Position numbers and translations under genes: made by a program
Assembly: GCF_000759535.1 (NCBI RefSeq)
Contig: NZ_CP009455.1
Location: forward strand, 4,402,001 to 4,466,000
Source: Pseudomonas cremoricolorata
GTDB lineage: Bacteria; Pseudomonadota; Gammaproteobacteria; Pseudomonadales; Pseudomonadaceae
Length of the DNA stretch: 64,000 nt
Reading direction: 5' to 3'
Notes under the pieces: model-generated
What the model saw: only the letters and a program-made list of their open reading frames with translations
Database searches by the model: none
What the model was told of the DNA's origin: nothing
Shown: in pieces, positions 48,402 to 63,296 of the stretch
How positions within the stretch are numbered: position 1 is the stretch's first letter
How the letters are laid out: each line of letters starts with the position of its first letter

Positions 48402-48577
48402 GGGATCGCCGTCTTTTTCGATACTGGCATACCGCTTAAGGCCTGCAAGCGTTTTATGACGCCCGGTAGCCCACAGGCGCGGTTCAGACGCAGGATGTGC
48501 CGATTCGGGATACCGCAGGGTCTGGGGCGCCATGGATCATCGATGACACTCGAAGAATTCACCCCGGAGAACACCCC

Positions 48578-49954
48578 ATGAACGAAGCCCAACTCGAAGC
48601 CCTGCACTTCGCCGATGCCCCGCGCATCGTCTCGAGCGAACTGCCTGGCCCCAACACCCGTGAAGCGCTGGCGCTGTCGGCCAGTACCGAGTCGATGGCG
48701 CGCGGTGGCGGACGCATGCCGATCGCCATGGACCGCGCGTTCGGCGCCACCTTCAAGGACCCGGACGGCAACACCTTCATCGACCTCTCTGCCGGCGTTG
48801 GCGTGAGCAGCGTGGGCCGCTGCCACCCGCAGGTGGTGCAGGCCATCCGCGAGCAGTCCGAAGTGCTCATGCACGCCCTGGAAATCAACAGCACGCGGCG
48901 TACCGAACTGGCCGCCAAGCTGTCGGAAATCGCCCCGCCGGGGCTGCGCGGCGACTGCATCACCTTCTTCACGCAAAGCGGTAGCGACGCCCTGGAAGCG
49001 GCGGTCAAGTTCGCCAAGCGCATCACCGGCCGGCACCAGATCATCGCGTTCCATGGCGGCTACCATGGCGTCTGGCATGCCTCCGGCGCGCTGACCACCG
49101 GCACTGCCTACCGCAAAGGCTATGGCGCGCAGATGGGCGGGGTGATTCACGCGCCCTACCCCTACGCCTACCGTTTCCCCTTCGACACCACCCACAAAAG
49201 CGCCGAGCAGATCGCCGGCGAGTACGTCGACTACCTGCTCAACACGCCCTACACCGCCGCCGATGACGTCGCTGCGGTGATCGTCGAGCCGGTCCAGGGT
49301 GAAGGCGGCTACGTGCCGCCGTCGCCAGAATTCCTGCAACTGCTGCGCAAGGCCTGCGACCGCAGCGGCGCGCTGCTGATCGTTGATGAAGTGCAGGCCG
49401 GTGCCGGCCGCACTGGCAAGATGTGGGCAGTGGAGCATTCCGAGGTCAAGCCCGACATGCTCACCTTCGGCAAAGGCATCGGCAGCGACCTGCCCATGGC
49501 CGGCCTGATGATGCGCTCGGACCTGGCGGCGCAGATTCCGGACGGCTCGATGCCCAACACCTTCGCCGCCAACTCACTGTCTTCGGTGGTGGCGCTGACC
49601 AATATCAGCATTCTTCAAGACCCTGAGCTGGACCTGCTCAACCGTGCTCACGCCCTGGGCCTGGAGGCGCAGGAACGCATTCGGGGCTTCAACAGCCGGT
49701 TGGTTGGCGAGGTGCGCGGGCGCGGCCTGATGATCGGCATCGAGCTGGTCGAAGACCCTGTCACCAAACAGCCGTTGGCCGGCGAGAAGATTGGCCAACT
49801 GATGGGCTACCTGATGAACCACGGCGTGCTGATGATTCCCTGCGGGCGCTACAGCAACGTGATGCGCATCATGCCGTCGCTGACCATCTCGCGGTCGCTG
49901 TTCTTCAAGGCCCTGGACATCTTCGGCGACGCGCTGGCCTCGCTCGAGGCGTGA
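48578..49954 (+). CDS. Class III pyridoxal-phosphate aminotransferase
   Basis: The 458-residue enzyme has the class III (omega-type) pattern: SAGVGVSSVGRCHPQVV, FTQSGSDALEAAVKFAKRIT, HGGYHGVWHAS, LLIVDEVQAGAGRTGKM and the PLP Lys at 299 in TFGKGIGSDLPM. Such enzymes transfer amino groups from omega-amino acids or amines to 2-oxo acids. With the following aldehyde dehydrogenase it forms the standard two-step route from an amine or omega-amino acid to a carboxylic acid. The substrate is not defined. GGAGA precedes ATG 48578. Confidence 0.9.
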   Translation: MNEAQLEALHFADAPRIVSSELPGPNTREALALSASTESMARGGGRMPIAMDRAFGATFKDPDGNTFIDLSAGVGVSSVGRCHPQVVQAIREQSEVLMHALEINSTRRTELAAKLSEIAPPGLRGDCITFFTQSGSDALEAAVKFAKRITGRHQIIAFHGGYHGVWHASGALTTGTAYRKGYGAQMGGVIHAPYPYAYRFPFDTTHKSAEQIAGEYVDYLLNTPYTAADDVAAVIVEPVQGEGGYVPPSPEFLQLLRKACDRSGALLIVDEVQAGAGRTGKMWAVEHSEVKPDMLTFGKGIGSDLPMAGLMMRSDLAAQIPDGSMPNTFAANSLSSVVALTNISILQDPELDLLNRAHALGLEAQERIRGFNSRLVGEVRGRGLMIGIELVEDPVTKQPLAGEKIGQLMGYLMNHGVLMIPCGRYSNVMRIMPSLTISRSLFFKALDIFGDALASLEA

Positions 49955-49982: not shown

Positions 49983-51434
49983 ATGACTCAGCATCTGAAT
50001 CACTTCATCGCAGGCAAGTCGGTCGAGGGCAGCGGTGCGCGCATCGAGCTCATCGACCCGGTCACCGAACAGGTCTACGCAAGCTCAGCACGCGGCACCG
50101 CCGCAGACGTCGAGCGCGCCGTCGCTGCCGCCCATGCCCAGCTCGAGGGCGGCGCCTGGAGCCAGCTCGACGGCGCCCAGCGTGGGCGCCTGCTGACCAA
50201 GCTGGCCGACCTGGTGGAACGCGACAGCGAGCAGTTGGCCGACATGGACGCCAACGCCATCGGCCGGTCGCCGATGGAGCCACGGCGCATGGACTTGCCC
50301 AACGCCATCGCCAACCTGCGCGCAGCCGCAGGCTGGGCCAACCAGCTGGAAGGCCGCACCATCCCCACCGGCGGCTACTTCGGCAGCAAGACCTTGTCGT
50401 ACACGGTGCGTGAGCCGGTGGGCGTGGTCGGCGCGATCGTGCCGTGGAACTCGCCCTTGATGATCACCGTGTGGAAGCTGGCGGCGCTGCTCGCAGCGGG
50501 CTGCACGGTGGTCATCAAGCCATCGGAGGAAACCCCGCAGTCAGCCTTGCACCTGGCCGCACTGGCCCAGGAAGCGGGCTTTCCCGACGGTGTGATCAAT
50601 GTCGTCACCGGCTACGGCGCGGAAGTCGGCAAGGCCCTGTGCGAACACCCGCAGGTGGCCAAGATCAGCTTCACCGGCAGCCCCGAGGCTGGCCGCGAGA
50701 TTCAGCGCACCGCCGGCGTGCTGTTCAAGCAGGTGGCGCTGGAGCTGGGCGGCAAGAGCCCGCAGATCGTCTTCGACGATGCCAGCTTCGAAGACGCCGT
50801 GCGCGGCTGCGCCCTGGGGCTGTTCGCCAACCAGGGCCAGGTCTGCGCGGCCGGCTCGCGTATCCTGGTGCAGCGCAACCTGGCCGAACGCTTCGGCGCC
50901 GCGCTGGCCGAGGCGGCGCAGGCGGTGCAGGTCGGCGACCCACGCGAGGATGGCGTGCAGATGGGCCCGGTGGCCAAGAAGACGCAGTTCGAGCGGGTCA
51001 ACCGCTACATTCAGCTGGGCATCGACCAGGGCGCCACACTGGCAGCCGGTGGCGTCTCGACGCCGGAGCGGGGATGGTTCGTACGCCCGACGATCTTCAC
51101 CAACGCACGCAATGACATGGCCATCGCCCAGGAGGAAATCTTCGGCCCGGTGGGCACGCTGATCGTGTTCGACACCGAAGCCGAAGCGATTGCCCTGGCC
51201 AACGACTCTGCGTATGGTCTGGCCGCCACGGTGTGGACCGGCAATCTGGTGCGTGCGCACCGCGTGGCCGCAGCGATCAAGGCCGGTGCGGTGGGCATCA
51301 ACTGCTGGAGCCCGCTGGATGCCAACCTGCCGTGGGGTGGGGTCAAGACCAGCGGCATCGGTCGTGAAGGCGGGTTCAGCGGCGCGCTGGCCTACACCGA
51401 AGAAAAGGTCATCACGGTGCTGCTGCCGAGCTGA
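49983..51434 (+). CDS. NAD(P)-dependent aldehyde dehydrogenase
   Basis: The 483-residue enzyme has all hallmarks of the ALDH superfamily: VVGAIVPWNSPLMITVWKLA, VIKPSEETP, SFTGSPEAGREI, Glu254 in ALELGGKSPQIVFDD and the catalytic Cys288 in GQVCAAGSR. It follows the aminotransferase by 28 bases and should oxidise the semialdehyde that enzyme produces. It is in the same transcription unit under the divergent AraC regulator. Confidence 0.93.
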   Translation: MTQHLNHFIAGKSVEGSGARIELIDPVTEQVYASSARGTAADVERAVAAAHAQLEGGAWSQLDGAQRGRLLTKLADLVERDSEQLADMDANAIGRSPMEPRRMDLPNAIANLRAAAGWANQLEGRTIPTGGYFGSKTLSYTVREPVGVVGAIVPWNSPLMITVWKLAALLAAGCTVVIKPSEETPQSALHLAALAQEAGFPDGVINVVTGYGAEVGKALCEHPQVAKISFTGSPEAGREIQRTAGVLFKQVALELGGKSPQIVFDDASFEDAVRGCALGLFANQGQVCAAGSRILVQRNLAERFGAALAEAAQAVQVGDPREDGVQMGPVAKKTQFERVNRYIQLGIDQGATLAAGGVSTPERGWFVRPTIFTNARNDMAIAQEEIFGPVGTLIVFDTEAEAIALANDSAYGLAATVWTGNLVRAHRVAAAIKAGAVGINCWSPLDANLPWGGVKTSGIGREGGFSGALAYTEEKVITVLLPS

Positions 51435-51515
51435 CCTGCGCCGGCGCCCCGGCGAGCAACCTGCGTCGGGGCGTCGGTTCATTGCGCAGGTTGCGCCAAG
51501 CGTGGAGAAACCGTG

Positions 51516-52079
51516 ATGACCGCCTACCAACAAACGGCACTCGACCGTTACCCGACCGCCCTGCGGGTATTGCACTGGACCCGCGCGGTGCTGATTCTAG
51601 GCCTGCTCTGGGCCGGCTGGCACATGACCGGCATGGACGACGAGATACCCAGCAAGTTCGAGCTCTACTACCCCTGGCACAAGTCATTCGGCGTGCTGGC
51701 CTTCCTGCTGGTGCTGACCCAGATCGCCGTGCGCCTGCGCACACCGCACATCCCCCGCCCCTTGCAGACCCTGGCGCCCTTCGAGCGGACCTTGTCGAGC
51801 CTGGTGCAACGGGCCATGTACGTGCTGCTGGTGGTGGTGCCGCTGATGGGCTACTCGATGTCGAGCACCTTCACCATGAGTGACGGGGTGTTCTTCTTCG
51901 GCGTCGACCTGCCGGAACTGCTGCCCAAGAACGATGACTGGTTCGTGGTGTTCCAGTGGCTGCACAAGGTGCTGGCCTACACCCTGCTGGCGCTGATCGC
52001 CCTGCACGTCGCCGGGGCGCTCAAGCACCGTTTCCTGGACCGTGATCCGAGCAAGGATGTCTTGCGCCGGATGCTGTGA
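51516..52079 (+). CDS. Cytochrome b561 family membrane protein
   Basis: A 187-residue, four-helix membrane protein of the bacterial CybB type. Candidate haem ligands are H20 (RVLHWTRA), H55 (YYPWHKSFG), H150 (QWLHKVLAY) and H164 (IALHVAGALKHRFLDRD). These proteins move electrons between quinones and periplasmic or other acceptors. The start is ATG 51516; GTG 51513 is adjacent. It follows the aldehyde dehydrogenase by 81 bases and may be part of its transcript. Confidence 0.9.
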   Translation: MTAYQQTALDRYPTALRVLHWTRAVLILGLLWAGWHMTGMDDEIPSKFELYYPWHKSFGVLAFLLVLTQIAVRLRTPHIPRPLQTLAPFERTLSSLVQRAMYVLLVVVPLMGYSMSSTFTMSDGVFFFGVDLPELLPKNDDWFVVFQWLHKVLAYTLLALIALHVAGALKHRFLDRDPSKDVLRRML

Positions 52080-52101
52080 GGGGAACGCGGGACATCGACG
52101 G

Positions 52102-52209: not shown

Positions 52210-52560
52210 TCAAATCCATGCCGTGTGCCAATGCGAATACTCGCCGACTGTCCTCACCCGCCCCGCCCGAACAGCGTTGGTCACGGTCTATCTGGCAACG
52301 CTCAGCACGTTCTCCTCTCGACGCAGCGCAGGGTCGTGGTAGCCGGCCTGCCAGATCGGATACCCCCGCAACCCTGCCCGGTGCAGCAGCCCACTCGAAC
52401 GCGATTCGAAACGACGCATCAGGGGTGTCAGGGACGCATCCTCGAGTTCGATCAACCAGTGTATGGGGCCGCGCATCACCACCCACGCCAGCGACCGGCA
52501 GGCATCCTCATGATCTGACGGTCGCAGGTGTCGAATGACGGTACGCGTGTGTGAGCCCGC
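52210..52560 (-). pseudogene. Remnant of a REP-associated tyrosine transposase (RAYT)
   Basis: The minus-strand frame reads SLAWVVMRGPIHWLIELEDA, then LTPLMRRFESRSSGLLHRA, then YPIWQAGYHDPALRREENVL and SVAR, followed by an in-frame TAG. The frame then resumes with TNAVRAGRVRTVGEYSHWH to a TGA at 52210. This matches the IS200-like RAYT family along its central and C-terminal parts. Three lesions show: no N-terminus (frame opens after TGA 52561-52563), a stop where the family has the Tyr of ARYIVANP, and RGPIHW in place of the metal-binding DHIHW motif. It should be inactive. Confidence 0.8.
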
Positions 52561-52590
52561 TCAACAAAGGCTGACGGTGGTGGCCGACCG

Positions 52591-53928
52591 TTAGAACGAC
52601 AACCAGACAATGAACTGCAAATACACGTTGGTAGCGGCACTGCCACTCTGCACGCCGCCGTTGCCTTGCCATTTGTCGGGCTTGTAGAAGCCCACCAGGG
52701 GCGACAGGGTGACGTGGTCGGTCACTTGCCAGTCGAGGAACAGGTCGATCTCGCGGGCGCTGAAGTCCAGCTCATCACGGCGTGACATCTGCTTGAAATC
52801 GAAGGCCATGGCGTTGAGGGTCAGGCGCTCGGTGGGTTTGAGTTGCAGCAGCACGTCGTTGATTTCCATGTTGGCCGTCACCGAGCCGCCATAGTTGACT
52901 GCCACCTCGCCCTGATACCGGCCGCGGTAGCCGCCCTGGAAAAAGAAGTCCCAGCCTTCGGAGTAGCGTGAATAGCGGTAGCTCACGGTGGGCTGCCAGG
53001 GCGTATCGACGAAGGTGTAGCCGGCATCGAAGAACATGCCGCGCTGCGAGCCGGAGCGTTTTTCCTGACGCGCCACTTCGAAGGCGAAATCGGCGTTCTC
53101 GATGCCGGCATTACCCTGGCCGCGAATGCTGTAGATGTTCATGCCCTTGCGCTCGCCACGGTCGCCGAACACGTAACGTTCGTCGACATCCAGCCCGCGC
53201 ACGTAGGTCGAGCCGAGCGAGCCGATCGGTGTGCTGTAGTCGACCGTGGCCACGGCCATTTCGGTCTTCGACTGCCCGGGGTTGTCCGATTTCAGCCAGA
53301 TGAGGCTGCCATGCAAGCCTTCAGTGCCGCCCAGCTTGAGCACCGCCGTATTGCCAAAGGCCAGGCGCTGGCCGAGGTAGAACGCACCGCCGCGGTCGAA
53401 GCGCCCGTCGCTGACACCCGGGATGGGGCTGAAGGCCTTGCCGGTGTTGAAGCCGTCGTCGGTGATCAGAAAGCCGTCCACCGTGACCAGTTGCCGGCCA
53501 AAGGAAAAGTCCACGCCGTCCTGCCCCAGCCAGGGGATCGCATCGCCTGAACGCCAACCGAGAAAGGCATCTTCCAGGGCACTGGTGCGCTCGGTGCCGG
53601 CGGTGATGGCGCCGATGTCGCCGTCACCCCAGGTGCCCGAGCTGAGCATGCTCAAGCCGCCATAAACCGAGCCGGCCCCGAGCTTGTCGGTGCTGCCGGT
53701 CAAACCGTACTTGGCATAGCCCTCCTGCCAGTGCATGCGTCCCGGGTACTGCTCCGGGTTACCGCGGTAATTGCGCGAGGCGCTGTACCAGCCAAAGCCT
53801 GCGCCAAGTTCTGCGTTGAGCACCGTGGCGCCGTCATCTTCGTTGTACAGCTCGTAGGCCTGGGTCGGCGGCGCCAGCGCACAGAGTGCGAGCAACGGCA
53901 ATAACGACGGGCGGCGGGAAGTGCGCAT
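52591..53928 (-). CDS. Outer-membrane porin-like beta-barrel
   Basis: The 445-residue protein has a signal peptide (LLPLLALCALAPPTQA, cleavage before YELYNEDD). The mature chain is built of amphipathic strands rich in aromatic and acidic residues (GAGFGWYSASRNYRG, VDFSFGRQLVTVDGFLI) and ends in an aromatic residue (LQFIVWLSF), the outer-membrane insertion signal. It resembles alginate-export/porin-type barrels rather than classical OprD; the exact family is uncertain. It diverges from the twelve-gene metal-transport-like operon, with a shared promoter region, and may be its outer-membrane channel. Its leader carries a strong A-rich motif. Confidence 0.8.
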   Translation of the reverse strand: MRTSRRPSLLPLLALCALAPPTQAYELYNEDDGATVLNAELGAGFGWYSASRNYRGNPEQYPGRMHWQEGYAKYGLTGSTDKLGAGSVYGGLSMLSSGTWGDGDIGAITAGTERTSALEDAFLGWRSGDAIPWLGQDGVDFSFGRQLVTVDGFLITDDGFNTGKAFSPIPGVSDGRFDRGGAFYLGQRLAFGNTAVLKLGGTEGLHGSLIWLKSDNPGQSKTEMAVATVDYSTPIGSLGSTYVRGLDVDERYVFGDRGERKGMNIYSIRGQGNAGIENADFAFEVARQEKRSGSQRGMFFDAGYTFVDTPWQPTVSYRYSRYSEGWDFFFQGGYRGRYQGEVAVNYGGSVTANMEINDVLLQLKPTERLTLNAMAFDFKQMSRRDELDFSAREIDLFLDWQVTDHVTLSPLVGFYKPDKWQGNGGVQSGSAATNVYLQFIVWLSF

Positions 53929-53940
53929 GACGTCTCTCCT

Positions 53941-53955
53941 GTTCTTATTGTTGTT
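53941..53955 (-). promoter_or_regulatory. (AAN)5 catabolite-activity motif in the porin leader
   Basis: On the minus strand AACAACAATAAGAAC runs directly into the AGGAGA ribosome-binding site, 12 bases before the porin ATG. Five consecutive AAN triplets are a textbook-quality Hfq/Crc target in Pseudomonas, predicting strong catabolite repression of the porin. Confidence 0.6.
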
Positions 53956-54102
53956 AGGCGAGCGCCGAGTGTTCGACTTGGGACGGGCGAGCGTTAACCC
54001 AAATCAGCACATGCAGGTATTTGCACGGCGGGGTCATGCCCAGCGGCAGCAGTTGCCGTTTTCGGATACGGCCAGGGGCCGGGCTGGCCGTAGGCTGGAC
54101 CC

Positions 54103-54133: not shown

Positions 54134-54517
54134 ATGAAACCGATGTCATCCCTGCGCAAGGGCCTGGGCCTGCTGGCCCTGGTGACCTGCATCGCGCTGC
54201 CGGCCATTGCCACGGCGCACCATTCCTTCGCCATCTTCGACCAGACCAAGACCATCACCGTCAAAGGCGTGGTCGCCCGTTTCGTGTGGAGCAACCCGCA
54301 TATCTCGATCTATTTCGATGTGCCTGGCCCGCCCGAACAGCAGCTGAAAATCGAGACCGGCAGCGTCAACGCCATGAGCCGCGCCGGTTGGAAAGCCAGC
54401 TCGATCAAGGCCGGCGATGCCGCCGAGCTGACCTTCAAGCCGCTGAAGAACGGTGACCCGGGCGGGCTGCTGGTGGAAATCAAGACCGCTGAGGTGACGC
54501 TGTCGGGTGGCGGCTGA
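54134..54517 (+). CDS. DUF6152 family exported protein
   Basis: The 127-residue protein has a signal peptide (GLLALVTCIALPAIATA) predicted to be cleaved before H29, so the mature chain begins HHSFAIFDQ. The DUF6152 pattern (TVKGVVARFVWSNPHISIYF) follows, predicting a small periplasmic beta-sandwich. An N-terminal His pair plus the internal NPH His could bind a transition metal; this is inference. It is the first gene of the operon that leads to metal ABC transporter genes. The start at ATG 54134 gives a standard signal peptide. Confidence 0.8.
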   Translation: MKPMSSLRKGLGLLALVTCIALPAIATAHHSFAIFDQTKTITVKGVVARFVWSNPHISIYFDVPGPPEQQLKIETGSVNAMSRAGWKASSIKAGDAAELTFKPLKNGDPGGLLVEIKTAEVTLSGGG

Positions 54518-54567
54518 ACCTGCTCGTTCCTGCGCGTGAACATCCCCCCTGGCTGGAGACGCTGGCA

Positions 54568-55335
54568 ATGAAATCGACCCACCGCAATGCCCTGGCCTGC
54601 ACGGCCCTGGGCCTGATCCTCAGCACCGTCAGCACCCTCAGCGGTGCAGCGCCCGACGCGGCAAAAGCAAGCCCGCGCGCCGACATCAGCGGCACCTGGG
54701 AGCGCACCCCGGACGACTGGTTCGGCGAAGATCCCGACGATCCGGTACACCCCGGCGGCCCGATGCCGCTCAAGCCGGCCTATGCCCGCGACTACGCCGC
54801 GCTGAAAAAGCGCCAGGCCGCCGCCAACGAAGCCGGAACGCCGCTGGTCACCACCAGCTCGCGCTGCCTGCCCGAAGGTATGCCGGTGATGATGGCGGCG
54901 CTGTTTCCCATCGAGATCATTCACGACGACAAGCAAGTGATCGTGCTAGGCGAATACCTGCAGCAGGTGCGGCGCATCGTCCTCAACGAGCCGATGCCGC
55001 CGCTCAAGGACCTGGACCCCAGTTACCAGGGCTATTCGCGCGGGCACTGGGAAGGCGACACCCTGGTGGTGCAGACCCGCGGCGTGCGCACCGACGATGT
55101 GATGTTCTACGACGTGCCCCACGGCAGTGAGATGACCATCACCGAGCGCCTGCGCCTCAAAAGCCCCGACCTGCTGGAAAACCAGGTGCAGATCGACGAC
55201 CCGCAGGTGCTCACCGGGCCTTATCGCTTCACCTTCGACTACAAGCGCTCGGACTACCGCATTCACGAATACGTCTGCGAGAACAACCAGCTTGAAGTCG
55301 ACAGCGACGGCAAGACCCACCTCAAGCGCGACTGA
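54568..55335 (+). CDS. Exported protein of unknown function
   Basis: The 255-residue protein has an N-terminal signal peptide (ALACTALGLILSTVSTLSGA) and a mature region with the recognisable pattern ISGTWERTPDDWFGEDPDDP, SRCLPEGMPVMMAALFPIEI and GHWEGDTLVVQTRG. This pattern is shared with uncharacterised exported proteins that accompany DUF6152 genes. It has no obvious catalytic motif. It is 50 bases after the DUF6152 gene and 36 bases before the hydrolase gene, both on the same strand. Confidence 0.7.
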   Translation: MKSTHRNALACTALGLILSTVSTLSGAAPDAAKASPRADISGTWERTPDDWFGEDPDDPVHPGGPMPLKPAYARDYAALKKRQAAANEAGTPLVTTSSRCLPEGMPVMMAALFPIEIIHDDKQVIVLGEYLQQVRRIVLNEPMPPLKDLDPSYQGYSRGHWEGDTLVVQTRGVRTDDVMFYDVPHGSEMTITERLRLKSPDLLENQVQIDDPQVLTGPYRFTFDYKRSDYRIHEYVCENNQLEVDSDGKTHLKRD

Positions 55336-55371
55336 CGCTATCGCCCATCGACCCGTTCAAGGAGGTTGCCG

Positions 55372-56877
55372 ATGCCACCCCTGATGCCCTGTGCCCGCAC
55401 GCGCCTGCTGCCTGGCGCCCTGCTCGCGCTGCTGCTGAGCAGCCCTGCCCTCGCTGAAGTACCGCGCATGCCCAGCGTCAGCGCGGTGCCGCCCTCCGGC
55501 CAGTTGCCGCTGTCCTCGGCCAAGCGCCAGGGCACCGAGTACAGCGATCTTGCGCACTACGGCTATGTCGAAGAAGAGTACTACCTGCAAGGCACCGCCC
55601 CGGCCATTACCGCGGCCGGCAAGAGCCTGCTCGAGGCGCCGTACACCACGCGGATACTGGTGCGCAAACCGGCCGACCCGGCGCGCTTCAACGGCACCGT
55701 GGTGATCGAGCCGTTCAGCTGGTTCGGTGAGCGCGCCGCCGGCTGGATCCTGACCCGTGACTACCTGCTGCGCCGCGGTTATGCCTACGTCGGCTACACC
55801 CTGAACATCAACAAGCCCGAGGTCGACCCCAAGTTCATCGCCGCCACGCCCGAAGACACCGCCGCGCAGATCGCCCAGTACGGGCGCATCGTCAACTTCG
55901 ACTTCATGCGCCGCTTCGACTACGCCCGCTATGCGCCGCTGGCCAGCTACTACGACCCGCAGCGGTTCCAGCGTGGCGATGGCCCCGACCCTTTCGTGCC
56001 GCAATCCCAGGGCATCGGCGCGCAACTGGCGCTGCTGCTCAAGAGCGACGAGGCCCACGGCCCGCTGGCCGGCCTCAAGGTCGAGCGGGTGTATGTCGAC
56101 AGTTGGGCAGTGACCGCGCAGGTGTGGATGGACTACCTCGACCAGGGCCGTCACCAACAGTGGCGCATGCCCGACGGCAGGCCGCTAATCGACGCCTACA
56201 TGACCGGGCGCATGGCCTACGGCGAAGTCGGCGGCGAGGTGCTTCGAGTGCCACGGCAAATGCCCGGCGACGTGCCCTTCGTCACCGTCTACAGCCAGTC
56301 GGAACTGATGCACGACGTGCTCGAAGGCATCGCCCTGCCCGCCGACAGCGACCAACCCAGGCTGCGCTACTTCGAGGTGACCGGCATGCCGCACCTGCGT
56401 CTGGCCGACCTGGGCACCGAGCACACCGAACAGGTCGCCGCCGACATCGGCAAGGGCGACGACCCGCAGTGCCGCACGCTGTCTGACGAGCCGGTGCAAC
56501 TGGTGGTCGCGGCGCTGCTCGACGGCATGGACCGCTGGGTCCGCGAGGGCACGCCGATGCCCAAGGCGCCGCGAGTGCTGCGTAACGGCAAGACGGTGGT
56601 GCGCGACCCGGCCACCGGCAACATGCAAGGCGGTGTGCGCCCGCCCTGGGTGCAGGTGCCCAGCGCCACCTACCTGACCGACCAGGAAAGCGGCTGCGGG
56701 CTGATCTACGACACCAAGGTGCCGTACTCGGCGCAGCGTCTGCGCCAGCGCTACGGCAGTTTCAGCCAGTACCAACAGGCCTTCGACAACGCCAAGCGCG
56801 CCTCGGTCGAGCAAGGCTACCTGCTGCCCGAAGATGCCGCGGGCCTGCGCCCGACCGCGGCACCTGAAGATTTCTAA
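55372..56877 (+). CDS. Exported alpha/beta-hydrolase domain protein
   Basis: The 501-residue protein has a signal peptide (RLLPGALLALLLSSPALA, cleavage before EVPRMPSV). The mature part resembles the alpha/beta-hydrolase-domain family PF20091 (TRILVRKPADPARFNGTVVI, LLRRGYAYVGYTLN, VTVYSQSELMHD, RYFEVTGMPHLRLADLG). The nucleophile position appears to read YVDSWAVTA, not a standard GxSxG elbow, so activity is uncertain. ATG 55372 has AAGGAGG 6 bases upstream. The natural substrate is unknown. Confidence 0.72.
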   Translation: MPPLMPCARTRLLPGALLALLLSSPALAEVPRMPSVSAVPPSGQLPLSSAKRQGTEYSDLAHYGYVEEEYYLQGTAPAITAAGKSLLEAPYTTRILVRKPADPARFNGTVVIEPFSWFGERAAGWILTRDYLLRRGYAYVGYTLNINKPEVDPKFIAATPEDTAAQIAQYGRIVNFDFMRRFDYARYAPLASYYDPQRFQRGDGPDPFVPQSQGIGAQLALLLKSDEAHGPLAGLKVERVYVDSWAVTAQVWMDYLDQGRHQQWRMPDGRPLIDAYMTGRMAYGEVGGEVLRVPRQMPGDVPFVTVYSQSELMHDVLEGIALPADSDQPRLRYFEVTGMPHLRLADLGTEHTEQVAADIGKGDDPQCRTLSDEPVQLVVAALLDGMDRWVREGTPMPKAPRVLRNGKTVVRDPATGNMQGGVRPPWVQVPSATYLTDQESGCGLIYDTKVPYSAQRLRQRYGSFSQYQQAFDNAKRASVEQGYLLPEDAAGLRPTAAPEDF

Positions 56878-56903
56878 ACCCCGTTCGCTGCGAGAGAACG
56901 CCC

Positions 56904-57392
56904 ATGTCTTCCCTACCGATCGTCGAGTGGCTGTATGCCACGCCTGTCAGCAGCGCCATCCGTGACCTGCTGTGGGTGGTGCCCAGCGTACAGAGCCTGC
57001 ACATCATCGCCATCGCCGTGATCTTCGCCAGCGCGGTGCTTTCCGATCTGCGCCTGGCCGGCCTGTTCGCCCGCGACCTGCCCACGGCGCAGGTGATCCG
57101 CCGCTATTACCCGTGGATGCGCGGTGCGCTGCTGGTGCTGCTCGCCACCGGGCTGGTGATGGCCATCGGCGAGCCAGACCGGGTGCTGGTCAACAGCGTG
57201 TTCTGGCTGAAGATGGCCCTGGTGATCGTGGCTTTCCTGCTCGCCTGGCAGGTGCGCCGGCCCTTTCTGCGCAGCCGCCAGGGGCCTGGCAGCGACGTCG
57301 AGCGCCCCGGCCTGGCGCCCCTGGCGTGGCTGTCGATAGGCCTGTGGTGCGTGGTGATCTTCTGCGGCCGCTGGATCGCCTACGCGATCTGA
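56904..57392 (+). CDS. DUF6644-like four-helix membrane protein, copy 1
   Basis: The 162-residue protein has four hydrophobic helices and family-type segments SVQSLHIIAIAVIFASAVLS, DLRLAGLFARD and the C-terminal VVIFCGRWIAYAI. A His in the first helix (LHIIAI) is shared with copy 2. It is the same length as the next gene and clearly its paralogue. It probably forms a hetero-oligomeric membrane unit with that protein; the function is unknown. Confidence 0.72.
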   Translation: MSSLPIVEWLYATPVSSAIRDLLWVVPSVQSLHIIAIAVIFASAVLSDLRLAGLFARDLPTAQVIRRYYPWMRGALLVLLATGLVMAIGEPDRVLVNSVFWLKMALVIVAFLLAWQVRRPFLRSRQGPGSDVERPGLAPLAWLSIGLWCVVIFCGRWIAYAI

Positions 57393-57426
57393 GCCGCTTT
57401 CCTTTGACCTCAACCGGGTACTTTCC

Positions 57427-57915
57427 ATGGACCTACAAGCCGTGCTGCAAAGCCTCGAGTCCACCGCACTCGCCACCACCCTTCGCGAATCGGCCAACGC
57501 CTTCCCGGCCCTGGAGTCGGTGCATGTGATCGGTATCGCCCTGGTGTTCGGCACCATCAGCGTGGTCGACCTGCGCCTGCTGGGCCTGACCGCGCATCGC
57601 CACAGCGCGCAGCGGTTGATTGCCGAGCTGCTGCCATTCACCTGGGTGGCGTTCGTAGTCTGTGTGCTGACTGGCTCGCTGATGTTCATCGCCAACGCCA
57701 GCACCTACGCGCAGAACCCGATGTTCCTCGGCAAGCTGGCGCTGCTGGCACTGGCCGGGCTGAACATGGCGGTGTTTCACCTTGGCGCGTTCCGCCGCAT
57801 CAGCGAGTGGGACACCACCCTGCCGCCGCCACGCCCGGCGCGCCTGGCAGGCCTGGGTTCGATAGCCCTGTGGGCCGGGGTGATCTTCCTCGGGCGCTGG
57901 ATCGCCTTCGTCTGA
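57427..57915 (+). CDS. DUF6644-like four-helix membrane protein, copy 2
   Basis: This 162-residue paralogue of the preceding protein has matching segments: ALESVHVIGIALVFGTISVV, DLRLLGLTAHR and the C-terminal GVIFLGRWIAFV. The shared His, DLRL and GRWIA positions suggest conserved functional sites in the membrane. Its stop TGA overlaps the next start by one base (TGATG), the beginning of a run of fully coupled genes through 63296. Confidence 0.72.
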   Translation: MDLQAVLQSLESTALATTLRESANAFPALESVHVIGIALVFGTISVVDLRLLGLTAHRHSAQRLIAELLPFTWVAFVVCVLTGSLMFIANASTYAQNPMFLGKLALLALAGLNMAVFHLGAFRRISEWDTTLPPPRPARLAGLGSIALWAGVIFLGRWIAFV

Positions 57916-58619
57916 TGAATACGCCAATCCAGCCTGCGCGCACCCGCATACGACCCCGCTCGGGGCGCGGCGAAACGCTGATGCTGCTGATGGTCACCCT
58001 GGCAGTGCTACTCAGCGTCACCGGTTACCTGCTGTGGCGTCCCGAGCGCAGCGGCCCGCCGACGCCGCTGAGCTGGCAGGTGCGTTCCTTCGACGGCCTG
58101 GGGCCGGTCGATCAGGCGATTCACAGCGCGCTGCTGCCGGCTGGCGAAGAGATCATCTGGAACAACGACGACACCGGCGAGTGGATCAGCCTGGAACGCG
58201 CCCAGAAGATGCTGTTGCCGCCGTTCTACCGCGACGGCTTCTGGCGCAGCAACGGCGAGGTGCACTGGCAACTGGTCTTGCCAGGCACCCACCTGGGCCA
58301 CCAGAACCCCGAGGCCAGCCACGCCGAAGATGCTGCGCCCGCCAGCGAGGTGTCCCAGGCCACCCAGGGCCAGGGCGCCACCGTGTACTACGGCAGCGGC
58401 GGCCATGCGCCTGGACAAAGCGCCTACCTGCTGGTCATCGGCCATGCCCATGCCGGGGTGATGTGGGCCAACCAGGCAACGATCTGGATTCATTCCAACC
58501 CCAATGCGCCCTACCCGGCCATCGTCAAGGCCGAGTCACTGGTCGGCGAAGGCTGGCGTCAGGTCATTCCCTACGACGGCAGCCGTGAACTTGAACGCGT
58601 ACAAGGAACCCCGCCATGA
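57915..58619 (+). CDS. DUF6162-like membrane-anchored protein
   Basis: The 234-residue protein has a basic N-terminus, one membrane helix (about 23-41: LMLLMVTLAVLLSVTGYLL) and a soluble, probably periplasmic domain with several His (FWRSNGEVHWQLVLPGTHLG, GHQNPEASHAED, VIGHAHAGVMWANQ). It resembles DUF6162 proteins, which, as I recall, occur with metal ABC transporters. The His-rich stretches around residues 115-140 and 175-185 could bind metal. Its start overlaps the previous stop and its stop overlaps the next start by 4 bases. Confidence 0.68.
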   Translation: MNTPIQPARTRIRPRSGRGETLMLLMVTLAVLLSVTGYLLWRPERSGPPTPLSWQVRSFDGLGPVDQAIHSALLPAGEEIIWNNDDTGEWISLERAQKMLLPPFYRDGFWRSNGEVHWQLVLPGTHLGHQNPEASHAEDAAPASEVSQATQGQGATVYYGSGGHAPGQSAYLLVIGHAHAGVMWANQATIWIHSNPNAPYPAIVKAESLVGEGWRQVIPYDGSRELERVQGTPP

Positions 58620-59548
58620 ATGCCCAAGCCCTCTACCGCGCACGCCTGTACCGCTGGCTGGCGCTGCTGATGCTGCTGCCGCTGATCGCCCTGGCCGCAG
58701 ATGAACCCGGCGCCGGCAAACGCCTGCAGATCGGAGTCACCCTGCACCCCTACTACAGCTTCGTGGCCAACATCGTCGGCGACCGCGCCGACGTGGTGCC
58801 GCTGATTCCGGCCGAGGCCAACCCGCACAACTACCAGCCGCAACCCGACGACATCACCCGAGCCATGAAGCTCGACGCCCTGGTCGTCAACGGCATCGGC
58901 CACGATGAATGGGCGCGGGAGATCGTCAAGGCCGCCGGCCGTCAGGACACCCTGCCGCTGATCCAGGCCAATGCCGCCGTGGCGCTGATCCCCATTGGCG
59001 GCGATCAGGACGGGCTCAAGGTGGTCAACCCGCATACCTTCGTCTCCACCACCGCAGCGATCCAGCAGGTGTTCGAAATCACCCGGCGCCTGAGCGAACT
59101 GGACCCGCGCAACGCCAGTGTCTACCGGCACAACGCGCTGGCCTACGCCGGGCGTATCCGCGCCATGCGGGCGCAGTACATGCGCCGCTTCGCCGCCCTC
59201 GACCTGTCGCAGTTTCGCTGCGCCACCACCCACGCCGGCTACGACTACCTGTTGCAGGAATTCGGCCTGTTCGTCACGGCGGTGATCGAGCCGCGTCACG
59301 GCGTGGCGCCGACCGCCCGGCAACTGGCCAACACCGTCGACACCATCAAGAAAGCCAACGTGCGCGTGCTGTTCGCCGAGAAGAACTTCTCCCTCGACCT
59401 GGCCAAGCCGATCGAAGACGCCACCGGGGTGAAAGTGTTCGCCCTGTCGCACATCACAGGCTCGGCCTACAGCGCCGATGAATACGAGAACGCCATGCGC
59501 GAGAACCTGGAAACCCTGGCCGCCGCCGTGGAGTACACCCAGCCATGA
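58616..59548 (+). CDS. TroA/ZnuA-type metal-binding protein of an ABC importer
   Basis: The 310-residue periplasmic binding protein has a signal peptide (LALLMLLPLIALA, cleavage before ADEPG). The cluster A-I metal ligands are at expected places: H71 in EANPHNYQP, H140 in VNPHTFVS and H206 in ATTHAGYDYLLQEFG, with an acidic residue at E255 in LFAEKNFSLD. Three His favour zinc over manganese. Its stop overlaps the ATPase start (ATGA). The permease and ATPase that complete the importer follow immediately. Confidence 0.9.
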   Translation: MNAQALYRARLYRWLALLMLLPLIALAADEPGAGKRLQIGVTLHPYYSFVANIVGDRADVVPLIPAEANPHNYQPQPDDITRAMKLDALVVNGIGHDEWAREIVKAAGRQDTLPLIQANAAVALIPIGGDQDGLKVVNPHTFVSTTAAIQQVFEITRRLSELDPRNASVYRHNALAYAGRIRAMRAQYMRRFAALDLSQFRCATTHAGYDYLLQEFGLFVTAVIEPRHGVAPTARQLANTVDTIKKANVRVLFAEKNFSLDLAKPIEDATGVKVFALSHITGSAYSADEYENAMRENLETLAAAVEYTQP

Positions 59549-60240
59549 ACCAGGCCAGCGCGGTACGCGGCCCGGCCGTGGTATTCGATGACGTATCGCT
59601 GCGCCTGGGCGGGCAGACGGTGCTCGAGCAGGTGAGCTTTCGTATCGAACCTGGCGCGCTGCATTGCCTGGTCGGCCCCAACGGCGGCGGCAAGACCTCG
59701 CTGCTGCGCAGCCTGCTCGGGCAAATGCCGCATAGCGGGCAGATTCACCTCGAAGGCGCAGCGACACCGCTGGGCTACGTGCCGCAATCGCTGGACTTCG
59801 ACCGCAACGTGCCGATGACGGTGAACGACGTCATGGCCCTGCTCGGCCAGCGCCGCCCGGCCTTCTTCGGCGCCGGTCGGCGGCAACGGGCCGTCTACGC
59901 GCAGGCGCTGCAACGCACCGGGGTGGGTGAGCTGGGCGCGCAGGCGTTCGGCAGTCTCTCCGGCGGTCAGCGCCAGCGCGTGCTGCTGGCCCAGGCGCTG
60001 AGCCCGGCGCCGCGCCTGCTGCTGCTCGATGAGCCCAGCGCCGGCATCGACGAAAGCGGCGTGCGTCTGCTCGAGGCGCTGGTCGGCGAACTGCACGCCA
60101 GCGGCGTCACCGTGCTGTGGGTCAACCACGATCTGCAGCAGGTCCGGCGTATCGCCCAGTCGGTGACGCTGATCAACCAGCGCGTGCTGGCCCACGGCCC
60201 GGCCAGCCTGCTCGACGACCTGCCTGGAGCTGCCCGATGA
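59545..60240 (+). CDS. Metal ABC transporter ATP-binding protein
   Basis: The 231-residue ATPase has Walker A VGPNGGGKTSLLRSL, the signature LSGGQRQRVLLAQAL, Walker B LLLLDEPSAGID and the switch His in LWVNHDLQQV. It is similar to ZnuC/TroB. It overlaps both neighbouring genes by 4 bases and pairs with the ABC-3 permease downstream. Confidence 0.92.
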   Translation: MNQASAVRGPAVVFDDVSLRLGGQTVLEQVSFRIEPGALHCLVGPNGGGKTSLLRSLLGQMPHSGQIHLEGAATPLGYVPQSLDFDRNVPMTVNDVMALLGQRRPAFFGAGRRQRAVYAQALQRTGVGELGAQAFGSLSGGQRQRVLLAQALSPAPRLLLLDEPSAGIDESGVRLLEALVGELHASGVTVLWVNHDLQQVRRIAQSVTLINQRVLAHGPASLLDDLPGAAR

Positions 60241-61142
60241 ACGCCTTCTACGATTTCATCCGCGAACAGCTGCAAGCGCTTGCCGCCAGTGGCGTGCTGC
60301 CGCAGCCCTTCGAATACACCTTCGTCATCAACGCGCTGCTGTGCGCGGTGTTGATCGGCCCGCTGCTCGGGGTGCTCGGCTCGATGGTGATGATCAAGCG
60401 CATGGCCTTCTTCAGCCAGTCGGTCGGCAATGCGGCGATGACCGGGGTTGCCATCGGCGTGCTGGTCGGCGAGTCGTACACCTCGCCGTACCTGTCGATG
60501 TTCGGCTTCTGCCTGTTGTTCGCCCTGACCCTGAAGTACACCCAGCAGCGCACGCAGTTGGCCAACGACACGCTGATCGGCGTGTTCCTGTCGATTTCGT
60601 TGGCGGTCGGCGCCTCGCTGCTGCTGTTCGTCTCGGCGAAGATCAACACCCACGTAATGGAAAGCGTGTTGTTCGGCTCGATCCTGGCGGTCGACCACAC
60701 CGATATGAACGTGCTGCTGGCGGTCATGCTCGCCTGCGCGTTGATCGGCCTGCCGCTGTACAACAGCATGCTGCTGGCCAGCCTCAACCCGAGCCTGGCG
60801 CATGCCCGCGGCATTTCCATTCGCACGGTCGAGTACCTGTTCGTGGTGCTGGTGACCCTGGTCACGGTGGCCTGCCTGAAGATCATCGGCGCGGTGCTGG
60901 TCGAGGCGCTGCTGCTGATTCCTGCCTCCGCGGCGCGCAACGTCACCCGCTCGCTGCCGGCGATGGTCGCCCTCGCCGTGCTGATCGCCACCTTCTCGTG
61001 CGTGGTCGGCATTCTGCTGCCCATGCAGTTTCACATCCCGGTGCCCACCGGTGGCGCGATCGTGCTGGTCGCGGCGCTGGTGTTCCTCGCCACCACCGTC
61101 ATCCGCGCGACCTCACCGCGCTTCAGGGGAGCCAGCGCATGA
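60237..61142 (+). CDS. Metal ABC transporter permease (ABC-3 family)
   Basis: The 301-residue inner-membrane protein has eight or more hydrophobic segments and the ABC-3 family motifs LLGVLGSMVMIKRMAFFSQS, DTLIGVFLSISLAVG, AHARGISIRTVEYLF and IGAVLVEALLLIPASAARN. It forms the channel for the metal delivered by the preceding binding protein. A longer open frame begins upstream in the ATPase gene; ATG 60237 matches the family and overlaps the ATPase stop. Confidence 0.92.
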   Translation: MNAFYDFIREQLQALAASGVLPQPFEYTFVINALLCAVLIGPLLGVLGSMVMIKRMAFFSQSVGNAAMTGVAIGVLVGESYTSPYLSMFGFCLLFALTLKYTQQRTQLANDTLIGVFLSISLAVGASLLLFVSAKINTHVMESVLFGSILAVDHTDMNVLLAVMLACALIGLPLYNSMLLASLNPSLAHARGISIRTVEYLFVVLVTLVTVACLKIIGAVLVEALLLIPASAARNVTRSLPAMVALAVLIATFSCVVGILLPMQFHIPVPTGGAIVLVAALVFLATTVIRATSPRFRGASA

Positions 61143-62158
61143 GCCGAACCCGTCGTCCATCCCAGACACTCTTCACGCTGCTGCTGGCCATGCTGTTGAG
61201 CACGCCGCTGGCCGCCATGGCCGAGGGCAAGCGTCAGCAGGTGCTGGTCGCCCTGCCCGCGCTGCAGGCGCTGACTGCGCAGCTCAGTGAAGGCACGCAG
61301 ATCGATGTCGTGCGTGTGCCGCAGCAGCAGGCGGTGCCGATGGAAAGCCTGGGCAGCGCCCTGGCGCGCCTGGACCCGGCGCCGTTGCAGCGCGCCGATG
61401 CGGTGGTCACCTTGAGCCGCCTGTGGCCAGCCGACCCGCTGTACGCGGCAGCGCGCCGGCAACAGCTGCGCACCGTCGAGATCGACGCCTCGCGCTCATG
61501 GGATGCGCACATGCCCGCCGTGGCGGTGGTGCACGTGCCAGCCAACGACGTGCCTTGGGCCGCGCCCAGCACGGCCGAGCAGCCGCTGTCGCCGTTCGTC
61601 TGGCTTGGTCCGGTCAACGCCATGCGCATGGCCGCGCTGATCGCCGCCGACCTGGCGCGGCTGTCACCGCCCGATGCGCCGCGCATCACCGCCAACCTCA
61701 GCCAGTTGGAAAGCGGCTTGCGCCAGCTCAAGGCCGAGTACGGCGCGCGCATGCTGGCGCTAAACGATGTGCGGGTGCTGTCGCTGGCCACCGAGTTCAG
61801 CTACCTGTTCGATGAATTTGGCGTGTACGTGGAGGGCGTGTTCGCCCGTCAGGACCTGGACTGGAGCGCCGCCGACCGCGCCGCGCTGAGCGCCTACCTG
61901 CGTGAGCGTGACATTCGCGTGGTGGTGCACAAGTGGCCTCCGGCTGACGACATCGCCGCCGCCATCACCGCTGGCGGTGCGCGCCTGGTGATTCTCGACA
62001 GCGGCAACCCCGGCCTGCTGGCTGACCCATCGGTGCGTTACGACGCCCTGCTGCGCAGCAATCTCGAGGCCTTGCTCAAGGCCTTCGACGCCAAGCCCGA
62101 GCCCGCGACCGCACCCGGCGCAGTGGCGACCACGACCCTGGAGACACACACCCGATGA
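61139..62158 (+). CDS. Second TroA-like binding protein without canonical metal ligands
   Basis: The 339-residue exported protein (signal peptide LLLAMLLSTPLAAMA) has the cluster A-I fold outline: QVLVALPALQALTAQLSEGT, LQRADAVVTLSRLW, PFVWLGPVNAM, LATEFSYLFDEFGVYVEG and VVHKWPPADDIAAAI. In contrast to its neighbour, the three ligand His are absent: the NPHxY segment is missing, the second site reads FVWLGP, and the third has Glu219 (ATEFSYLF against ATTHAGYDYL). It may bind another metal form or serve as a regulator or docking partner. ATGA overlaps mark both ends. Confidence 0.75.
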   Translation: MSRTRRPSQTLFTLLLAMLLSTPLAAMAEGKRQQVLVALPALQALTAQLSEGTQIDVVRVPQQQAVPMESLGSALARLDPAPLQRADAVVTLSRLWPADPLYAAARRQQLRTVEIDASRSWDAHMPAVAVVHVPANDVPWAAPSTAEQPLSPFVWLGPVNAMRMAALIAADLARLSPPDAPRITANLSQLESGLRQLKAEYGARMLALNDVRVLSLATEFSYLFDEFGVYVEGVFARQDLDWSAADRAALSAYLRERDIRVVVHKWPPADDIAAAITAGGARLVILDSGNPGLLADPSVRYDALLRSNLEALLKAFDAKPEPATAPGAVATTTLETHTR

Positions 62159-62469
62159 ACACCACCGCTCACCTGTTGCTGGCCGCCGCACTGCTCACGG
62201 CACCGGCTGCCTTCGCCCACGGCCCGGCCTTCGACTGCTATCTGGAGGGCGCCGGCGGGGTGAAATGCGAAGCCGGTTTCACCGACGGCAGCTCGGCCGC
62301 CGGACGCACCATTCAGGTCCGCGACAGCCGCGGCAAAGTGCTGCTCGAAGGCCCGGTGGCGGCCGATGGCAGCTACCGCTTCCAGGCGCCGAGCGGCGAC
62401 TACGCCGTGACCTTCCTCGGCGGCGACGGCCATGACGCCACGCTGCAGTCCTTCGACATCACCCAATGA
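62155..62469 (+). CDS. Small exported protein with predicted N-terminal His
   Basis: The 104-residue protein has a signal peptide (LLLAAALLTAPAAFA) predicted to be cleaved before H22, giving a mature chain that starts HGPAFDCYLEG. Two Cys (CYLEGAGGVKC) could form a disulfide. The rest (IQVRDSRGKVLLEGPVAADG) resembles a small carboxypeptidase-regulatory-like beta-sandwich. It is placed between the second binding protein and the DUF4198 protein with 4-base overlaps. The function is unknown; a metal chaperone role is inferred from context. Confidence 0.68.
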   Translation: MNTTAHLLLAAALLTAPAAFAHGPAFDCYLEGAGGVKCEAGFTDGSSAAGRTIQVRDSRGKVLLEGPVAADGSYRFQAPSGDYAVTFLGGDGHDATLQSFDITQ

Positions 62470-63296
62470 GCACGCCCATGACCTATCAACGCCCCCTGCA
62501 CGCCCTGGCCGCCGCCACTGCCCTGAGCCTGAGCGGCGCCGCCCAGGCGCATTTCCAGGTGCTGTACGTCGACGACACCGCCCTGCCACGGGCGCACCCG
62601 CTGGAACTGGCGATGGTGTTCACCCACCCGTTCAGCGGTGGCCCGACCATGGCCATGGGCAGCCCGCTGGCGTTCAACCACATCAGCGCCCGCGGCGAGA
62701 AAACCGACCTGCGCAGCTACCTGCGCCCGGTGCAATGGCACAGCCCGGACAACGCGGCGACGGCCTACCGCGCCTCACTGCCCCGCGAGCTGGTGCGCAG
62801 CCTGGGTGATCACACCTTCGTGCTCGAACCCGAGCCGTACCTTGAAGCCGAGGAAGGCTTGTACATCCAGCAGTTCACCAAGCTGGTGATCAATGTCGGC
62901 GGGGTGCCGGGCAACTGGTCCGAACCCCAGGACCTGCCCGTGGAAATCCAGCCGCTGAGCAAGCCCTACGCGAACTGGACCGGCGGCGTGTTCCGCGCAC
63001 GGGTGCTGGCCGACGGCAAGCCGGTGCCGTTCGCCAAGGTGGAAATCGAGTACCTGAACCACCCCGTCGAGTTCAACGCCAATGGCTTTGCCAAGACGCC
63101 CCAGGTCAAGGCGCCACAGGCCTCGTTCAACGTGCAGAGCACCTACGCCGACGACCTGGGCATCGTCACCGTGGGCCTGCCGCGCGCCGGCTGGTGGGGC
63201 ATTGCCGCACTGGACATCGGTGCGAAGAAGACCTACCAGGGCAAGGCGCTGTCCCAGGATGCGGTGCTGTGGGTGCAGGCCACCGACATGCAATGA
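62466..63296 (+). CDS. DUF4198 family exported protein
   Basis: The 276-residue protein has a signal peptide ending LSLSGAAQA with the mature chain starting H29-F-Q-V-L-Y. DUF4198 features are FQVLYVDDTALPRAHPLELA, FTHPFSGGPTMAMG and VFRARVLADGKPVPFAKVEI. Some members of this family are associated with nickel or cobalt uptake and use the mature N-terminal His as a ligand, as I recall. It is the last gene of the operon and is followed by an 11-base-stem hairpin. Confidence 0.8.
   Translation: MSTPMTYQRPLHALAAATALSLSGAAQAHFQVLYVDDTALPRAHPLELAMVFTHPFSGGPTMAMGSPLAFNHISARGEKTDLRSYLRPVQWHSPDNAATAYRASLPRELVRSLGDHTFVLEPEPYLEAEEGLYIQQFTKLVINVGGVPGNWSEPQDLPVEIQPLSKPYANWTGGVFRARVLADGKPVPFAKVEIEYLNHPVEFNANGFAKTPQVKAPQASFNVQSTYADDLGIVTVGLPRAGWWGIAALDIGAKKTYQGKALSQDAVLWVQATDMQ

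Follow-up and report, generated by a model that had tools for sequence, protein, structure and literature searches.

A conserved twelve-gene operon of Pseudomonas cremoricolorata with Fpv-like import genes and operators shared with amine-catabolic genes

We describe a twelve-gene operon (g1 to g12) in Pseudomonas cremoricolorata, contained within a stretch of 64,000 nucleotides (the window; contig NZ_CP009455.1, positions 4,402,001 to 4,466,000) of a genome that consists of one contig of 4,780,403 bases. The twelve genes form a real, conserved unit, in which g6 to g11 are, judged by their sequences, homologous to genes of the Fpv system that releases iron from pyoverdine, and which has operator motifs in common with amine-catabolic genes. 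We consider, with moderate confidence, that the products of the operon work in the periplasm to strip a metal from its organic complex and to take up the bare ion, and that they supplement a regulon for amine catabolism.

All twelve reading frames were found on the forward strand at 54134-63296 (Table 1). They encode a DUF6152 protein (g1), a protein of unknown family (g2), an Abhydrolase_10 protein (g3), two DUF6644 proteins (g4 and g5), a DUF6162 protein (g6), a first binding protein (g7), an ATPase (g8), a permease (g9), a second binding protein (g10), a small exported protein (g11) and a DUF4198 protein (g12), with a barrel gene (g0) divergent from them. The initial annotation had described a twelve-gene operon with a divergent porin-like barrel as a candidate metal acquisition system, and the operon is indeed a coherent, conserved unit for metal import that contains exported and membrane proteins of an unusual kind. 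Its family names DUF6152, DUF6644, DUF6162, DUF4198 and TroA-type are supported by Pfam, and the overlapping stops and starts that it reported from position 57427 onward were recovered, with 1 base shared by g5 and g6, and 4 bases at each of the junctions g6/g7, g7/g8, g8/g9, g9/g10, g10/g11 and g11/g12. A pattern scan gave four terminator-like sites against 6.0 expected, the sole one on the forward strand lying within g8. No match to g2 was found in Pfam, NCBIfam or the PDB, and a literature search found no mention of DUF6162, DUF6644, DUF6152, PF20091, PF20349, PF19649, PF19659 or Abhydrolase_10.

The gene order is retained in 13 of 14 Pseudomonas loci, counting the window and a second P. 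cremoricolorata locus (L008) with proteins 95-98% identical to those of the window. Orthologues of g10 (at least 61% identity) were identified in 13 of 298 Pseudomonas genomes, that of the window included, with the next-best among the matches listed at 39% identity or less, and 12 of these 13 carriers also hold g3. Eleven of the 12 further Pseudomonas loci contain g0 to g12 in order (g0 being truncated where the contig of L044 ends, and g1 apparently shortened, to 104 amino acids, in L043), while the twelfth, L045 in genome G527, retains just g7 to g12 and the end of g6; here the operon is cut inside g6, and an open reading frame of 4638 amino acids replaces g0 to g5. Outside the genus, Variovorax beijingensis (L009) contains g1 to g12 in order, 55-80% identical, with the barrel at the opposite end.

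Beyond these loci, g3 is rare. At E<=1e-60 it was detected in 2 of 390 genomes drawn from the order, and at E<=1e-40 in 2 of 398 drawn from the phylum; the two draws overlap, and both count the window's genome. In the Variovorax family, 2 of 399 genomes have it at E<=1e-100, Variovorax itself included. At least 197 homologues of g3 were found at E<=1e-80 among 7994 candidates scored, and the best 120 of these, which were listed, come from Pseudomonas, Burkholderia, Acidovorax, Variovorax, Sphingobium and others. Protein searches gave 280 homologues of g2 (E<=1e-5) and at least 120 of g10, and among the matches listed Variovorax sp. 22077 and Burkholderia sp. LMU1-1-1.1 have homologues of both g3 and g10, in each case on contigs of equal length. 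A plasmid search with g10 returned 13 records, each covering less than 80% of the protein.

The import core and its Fpv-type counterpart

Five ZnuA-type matches are present in the window's own genome, comprising one lone binding protein and two pairs. The second pair (L006) belongs to a row of genes for PepSY_TM, unknown, NikL-like and DUF6162 proteins, a first binding protein, an ATPase, a permease and a second binding protein, near a lysine/ornithine oxygenase gene. This row is a separate, pyoverdine-type copy, which we take to be fpvGHJKCDEF. The order and roles of these genes, as given in the passages available from PMC6954188 and PMC10866019, are consistent with the row, and the same passages of PMC6954188 describe FpvF as a binder of pyoverdine and FpvC apparently as a binder of ferrous iron.

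Six of the eight genes of the Fpv system (FpvJ, K, C, D, E and F) have homologues in the operon. Identities to the own Fpv-type copy are 25% for g6 (E 1.8e-12), 47% for g7, 52% for g8, 55% for g9, 33% for g10 (E 1e-35) and 37% for g11 (E 2.8e-15). Thus the import system, which had initially been called undescribed, has six core genes that are one-for-one homologous to FpvJ-K-C-D-E-F-type genes of the same genome. No counterparts of g1 to g5 or g12 were identified in the Fpv-type row, and the own PepSY_TM (FpvG-type) and FpvH-type proteins matched none of the operon proteins at E<=1e-3.

The two systems also agree in the division between their binding proteins, each having one ATP-binding cassette (ABC) transporter with a histidine-bearing binding protein and a second one without those histidines. 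Seven histidines are common to g7 and the own FpvC-type protein, and are invariant in the alignment of all 15 g7 orthologues, whereas none of the 15 orthologues of g10 keeps any of the seven, nor does the own FpvF-type protein; the ZnuA row of this alignment, being in a wrong frame, is disregarded. The best PDB match of g7 was 6ru4/6r3z (288 bits), with the next different protein, YfeA, at 101 bits, and six of the seven histidines occupy the positions that differ as histidine or glycine between chains 6ru4/6r3z and 6r6k. We presume that 6ru4/6r3z are FpvC, an identity for which the literature search gave no confirmation.

An unrooted FastTree phylogeny of the second binding proteins placed the 15 new proteins together in a clade of their own with support 0.88, separate from the 18 FpvF-type proteins included, and we accordingly reject g10 as a recent duplicate of the own FpvF. 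Proteins of Azospirillum and Vibrio fall between the new clade and the FpvF-type proteins; these come from plasmids on which the gene order is similar to the Fpv-type row.

The operon likely functions like the Fpv system, although it is not a member of it, as FpvG and FpvH are missing. It further differs in having no adjoining lysine/ornithine oxygenase, in the position of the FpvJ-like gene, which is 3' of the ABC genes and not 5' of them as in Fpv, in the addition of six genes and a porin, and in operators common to amine-catabolic genes. A resemblance to the nickel/cobalt energy-coupling factor (ECF) system NikMNQO-KL is seen in g11, which resembles NikL (52.6 bits), and in g12, as DUF4198 is the NikK family, although a literature search on NikK and DUF4198 yielded nothing useful; however, g11 falls under the NikL cut-off of 100, and the transporter of the operon is a TroA-type ABC and not an ECF transporter.

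Operators and neighbouring catabolic genes

In 14 of 14 loci, a pair of inverted blocks with the form GGTARCCCAAAWCRGCAA lies between g0 and g1. A position weight matrix (PWM) trained on 25 of these sites identified 49 sites scoring above 18 in 16 loci (763,841 bases), compared to none when each locus was resampled twice with a first-order Markov model. Twenty-eight of the 49 are g0-g1 sites, and 48 lie at most 400 bases 5' of g0, g1, an amino-acid-type permease (c14), an AraC-type regulator and aminotransferase pair (c15/c16), an aldehyde dehydrogenase (ALDH) or cytochrome b561, with gene starts taken from our own calling of open reading frames. Considering only the sites outside the g0-g1 regions, 20 of 21 are within this distance of the named genes, the exception being L044:10168. 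The c15/c16 site is present in all nine Pseudomonas loci with that pair, and a c16 site also in Variovorax; c14 has six sites in five loci, and further sites precede g0, g1 and an ALDH in Variovorax and cytochrome b561 in a second member of the Variovorax family (G1305, locus L061).

The genes for c15, c16, ALDH and cytochrome b561 lie upstream of g0 in 9 of the 14 Pseudomonas loci. The best NCBIfam match of c15 is EutR (108 bits, under the cut-off of 319), all 25 NCBIfam families among the matches listed for c16 are under their cut-offs, and the ALDH of the window is nearest to the phenylacetaldehyde dehydrogenase StyD (631.8 bits, under the cut-off of 800). The involvement of an aromatic amine is accordingly a guess and not a result. 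The literature passages available held nothing decisive for histamine, tyramine, dopamine, norepinephrine or octopamine as named substrates.

The regulator c15 (E<=1e-70) was identified in 30 of the 298 Pseudomonas genomes, apparently the same draw as in the g10 survey and one that does not contain L008. It is present in 12 of 13 carriers of the operon and 18 of 285 non-carriers (Fisher p 1.3e-12). The sole carrier without c15 is G527, whose operon is cut, and whose stretch L045 has no operator site above 11. Thus, c15 occurs without the operon, and no intact operon was seen without c15 in the sample. We infer from these patterns that the operon is under the control of c15 through this motif, and the operon should be considered jointly with the region 47399-54070, which holds the regulator, the probably co-regulated genes and the operator sites.

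Across the window's own genome, nine places fit the pattern when up to one mismatch is allowed, five of them at 4.449-4.478 Mb. One site is 5' of an ornithine-cyclodeaminase-type/RidA/FAD-oxidase set and has an AraC-type gene on the opposite side, and the first protein of this set matches 'tyramine oxidase subunit B' (704.6 bits, cut-off 362). Two more sites are in a stretch with an AraC-like gene (recognised by eye), one before that gene (matrix score below 14) and one before an ALDH-barrel pair (15.1). Matches with up to two mismatches are largely due to chance, as there were 64 against 42 in a backward control. A tyramine/dopamine catabolic unit of Pseudomonas putida U was reportedly described by Arcos in 2010, and possibly related genes of the window's genome are those behind a similar operator site; we know of no link of that unit to metal import.

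Further recurring genes were noted around the operon. A protein of the window (45939-47228, reverse strand) resembles by eye those at L050:13367-14623 and at L054:5990-7246 and 8747-10096, two of which have a weak N-terminal Trans_reg_C match (20.5 bits in the window copy, cut-off 26.2). These lie beside the g1 to g5-like set in Novosphingobium and directly 3' of the operon in L050, and may represent a second regulator; an operator-like site (score 16.1) is at 47358, 5' of the window copy. A catabolic set recurs near the operon at L067:2354-11684 (to the right of the window), L008, L051 and L052, and comprises a hydratase, an FAD enzyme of the 3-(3-hydroxyphenyl)propionate hydroxylase type (755 bits, cut-off 546), a hydrolase, an AA_synth protein, a glyoxalase, a BNR-repeat protein, a short-chain dehydrogenase/reductase (SDR), an ALDH, a thiamine pyrophosphate (TPP) enzyme and an IclR-like regulator. 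Elsewhere in the window, we found a match to a Tle1-like phospholipase effector family of type VI secretion systems (35318-36601, reverse strand; 55.5 bits, cut-off 27), and an operon of the MoxR-DUF58-DUF4381-VWA-BatD type (36792-43630, forward strand) followed by a fatty acid hydroxylase (43990-45096).

Table 1. Positions in the window of the operon, its operator sites and the neighbouring genes, with the supporting matches.
Feature	Position	Strand	Evidence
c15 AraC-type regulator, probable regulator of the operon	47399..48253	-	HTH_18 65.2 bits; start uncertain
Operator site in the regulator/aminotransferase gap	48497..48514	-	PWM 21.9; outside the training set
c16 class III aminotransferase, probably co-regulated	48578..49954	+	Aminotran_3 323.7 bits (frame 48497-49954)
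Aldehyde dehydrogenase (ALDH), 3' of c16	49983..51434	+	Nearest NCBIfam family StyD
Cytochrome b561, 3' of ALDH	51513..52079	+	Ni_hydr_CYTB 91.4 bits, cut-off 30.1
g0 divergent outer-membrane barrel, porin-like	52591..53928	-	Alginate_exp 20.3 bits, under cut-off 25.2
Operator site 1	53993..54010	+	PWM 25.2
Operator site 2, inverted	54053..54070	-	PWM 26.8
g1 DUF6152, exported; predicted mature N-terminus His-His	54134..54517	+	82.5 bits, cut-off 27
g2 exported, family unknown	54568..55335	+	280 homologues, E<=1e-5
g3 exported Abhydrolase_10	55366..56877	+	366.6 bits, cut-off 23
g4 DUF6644, membrane	56904..57392	+	77.1 bits, cut-off 27; borderline CopD 32.4, cut-off 32.1
g5 DUF6644, membrane	57427..57915	+	33.1 bits, cut-off 27
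g6 DUF6162, FpvK-like	57915..58619	+	27.5 bits, cut-off 27
g7 metal-binding protein, FpvC-like	58616..59548	+	Above ZnuA cut-off in own-genome search
g8 ABC ATPase, FpvD-like	59545..60240	+	52% to own copy
g9 ABC permease, FpvE-like	60237..61142	+	55% to own copy
g10 second binding protein, FpvF-like	61139..62158	+	ZnuA 60.3 bits, cut-off 29
g11 small exported, FpvJ/NikL-like; predicted N-terminal His	62155..62469	+	NikL 52.6 bits, cut-off 100
g12 DUF4198, exported; predicted N-terminal His	62466..63296	+	169.7 bits, cut-off 34

The metal and the unity of the operon

For the metal that would be freed, iron appears the leading candidate at a little short of an even chance, copper a weaker second, and any other metal clearly less probable. 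The case for iron is based on the homology of g7 to FpvC, and that for copper on the neighbours of the genes in two relatives. In g1, g11 and g12 a signal-peptidase-like end (alanine at -1; alanine, valine or threonine at -3), judged by eye and without a signal-peptide program, is followed by histidine in 15 of 15 sequences each, and in the DUF6644 proteins resembling g5 both His33 and His118 are invariant (20 of 20); these two are candidate ligands for heme.

An importer of copper, in which the FpvC-like protein would carry copper after its reduction, overlaps with our preferred reading, differing only in the metal; we regard it as unlikely, but as the strongest of the alternatives. In L009 a TonB receptor gene is 5' of g1, and 3' of g12 there is a gene for PepSY_TM (50.4 bits against a cut-off of 28.8); in L061 a receptor gene and PepSY_TM sequence are 3' of g5. 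These receptors match CrtA of Bordetella pertussis (9rvq/9rvx) with 344 and 340 bits, respectively, the next-best structures for the L009 receptor being CntO and FoxA (139 bits), and the L061 receptor alone was aligned, by eye, with a histidine at the essential His358 of CrtA. The passages available from PMC12914433 identify 9RVQ/9RVX as CrtA, a copper-chelate transporter, and these and passages of PMC13038864 place PepSY_TM genes 3' of crtA in more than 75% of loci. The borderline CopD match of g4 points in the same direction. Proteins with an N-terminal histidine recall CopC.

Set against this, the PepSY_TM sequence of L061 is in three pieces in differing frames, of which the largest (20.7 bits) is under the cut-off, and a receptor match (E<=1e-40) was absent from four of five Pseudomonas carriers tested, including the genome of the window, while the fifth has one at 40% identity. 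No PepSY_TM was found among the window proteins scanned. The CrtA-CrpH system of B. pertussis, which likewise combines such a receptor with PepSY_TM, accordingly differs from the window's operon in having these two components, and the CrtA paper, in the passages available, names neither an ABC importer nor an amine regulon. We additionally identified a second CrtA-like receptor/PepSY_TM pair in Variovorax (L127:7180-14471), with PepSY_TM 3' of the receptor, whose neighbours, as named by eye, are a ZnuABC-type transporter and a COG0523-like GTPase, so that the receptor family may not be restricted to copper. A supply of copper to a copper amine oxidase was rejected, as no such oxidase was found in 11 genomes. 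If the metal were copper, the operon would encode the first TroA-type copper importer known to us.

The operon could, alternatively, combine two unrelated neighbouring units, with g0 to g5 processing an organic substrate and the ABC genes constituting a hitchhiking iron importer, which we consider doubtful. The g0 to g5 genes are separable from the ABC genes. In G1305, cytochrome b561, g0 and g1 to g5 are followed by the receptor gene and PepSY_TM sequence, and g6 to g12 are absent from the 36 kb read at this locus, the remainder of the genome not having been searched. Novosphingobium plasmids (L054 and L055) contain DUF6152, g2-like, Abhydrolase_10, two DUF6644 and a second DUF6152 genes, with none of g6 to g12 in 29 kb each. 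DUF6152 and one DUF6644 were also found in Achromobacter, and in Azospirillum 1.6 kb from annotated siderophore ABC genes. L048 (1830-2582 and neighbours) and L049 have a second Abhydrolase_10-DUF6152-g2-like set, without DUF6644 or ABC genes, placed between cytochrome b561 and the barrel.

Within Pseudomonas, however, g3 was absent (E<=1e-20) from all 18 regulator-positive non-carriers of the operon, and from G527, where just a part of g6 to g12 is left; the same query did detect genome G251 in the order and phylum surveys. The occurrence of the first five genes mostly without the ABC genes, which the initial annotation had named as refuting its proposal, is thus borne out in part: outside Pseudomonas these genes are found without the ABC (L061, L054 and L055), and within this genus g3 was not. 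The overlap of the genes, the presence of g3 in nearly all carriers found by g10, and metal-related neighbours even where the ABC genes are missing further argue for a single unit.

It is improbable that the operon is specialised for acquiring zinc, manganese or some other metal and responds to a lack of the metal concerned. The fold families of the ATPase, permease and binding protein are those of ZnuABC, AztABC and TroABC, and the NCBIfam matches of g7 are to binding proteins for zinc, manganese and iron, but the operon differs from these systems in having two binding proteins, one of them without the metal ligands, and extra modules. A zinc or manganese importer was rejected because every NCBIfam cut-off was missed (for g7, AztC 125 of 350 bits and ZnuA 44 of 268 bits as equivalogs), far behind the match to 6ru4/6r3z, and the operators are shared with catabolic genes. 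No site for control by Fur stood out, the best Fur-like sites, scored against a consensus, being at 10-12 of 19 positions and not above shuffles (mean 9.9, maximum 13), although this search is weak, since a control stretch 5' of the own fpvG-type gene reaches only 12. Import by the ABC transporter of the organic ligand itself, alone or as a metal complex held by g10, would agree with the missing histidines of that protein, but is very improbable given an ATPase and permease 52-55% identical to the FpvD/E type, a g7 that keeps all seven histidines, and a separate amino-acid-type permease under the same operator.

A proposed mechanism and its meaning

In the mechanism that we favour, release of the metal followed by import of the bare ion, the AraC-type regulator would sense an amine or its product and bind the inverted operators at 53993-54070, so that the porin and the operon would be switched on along with the aminotransferase, ALDH, cytochrome b561 and permease. 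The metal complex would enter through the porin, and in Variovorax perhaps also through the CrtA-like receptor. Its ligand may be cleaved by the Abhydrolase_10 protein g3, and the part of FpvG, passing electrons to the metal, may fall to cytochrome b561 and the DUF6644 proteins. The metal may then be shuttled by g1, g11 and g12, with their predicted N-terminal histidines, to be taken as an ion by g7 and passed to g8 and g9, while the organic part would stay bound to g10, just as pyoverdine is bound by FpvF. A more specific form of this proposal, which we advance tentatively and think unlikely in all its details, is a joint use, in which copper or iron is taken from a complex with an aromatic-amine-type ligand, the ligand is split in the periplasm, the metal enters via the Fpv-like transporter, and the organic part is eaten via the regulon under the same operator.

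Several observations weigh against the proposal. The Fisher test on c15 ignores the kinship of the genomes, and L008, a near neighbour, has no c15 or c16 within 15 kb. Related AraC-type genes also lie beside similar sites, and the binding of the motif by c15 is itself something that we infer. The tyramine-oxidase-type genes of L051 and L052 have no site above 18, and the Novosphingobium stretches have no such motif above 11. Only His33 is invariant in g4, the second invariant histidine of g5 being missing. The Pseudomonas operons yielded no PepSY_TM gene, and the Variovorax PepSY_TM had no match (E<=1e-5) in five of five Pseudomonas carriers, a search that missed the own FpvG-type PepSY_TM too, and therefore excludes close relatives only.

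The pyoverdine-type release machine is known from one siderophore pathway, and its core is found here in another setting, in which the reductase is missing, extra proteins of unknown role are present, and the operator is common to carbon and nitrogen catabolism. The DUF6152, DUF6644, DUF6162, DUF4198 and g2 families thereby gain a common context that can be tested. The setting also suggests that in some bacteria the degradation of a chelator is coupled to the supply of its metal; this bacterium may be able to feed on the organic part of the complex from which it takes the metal.

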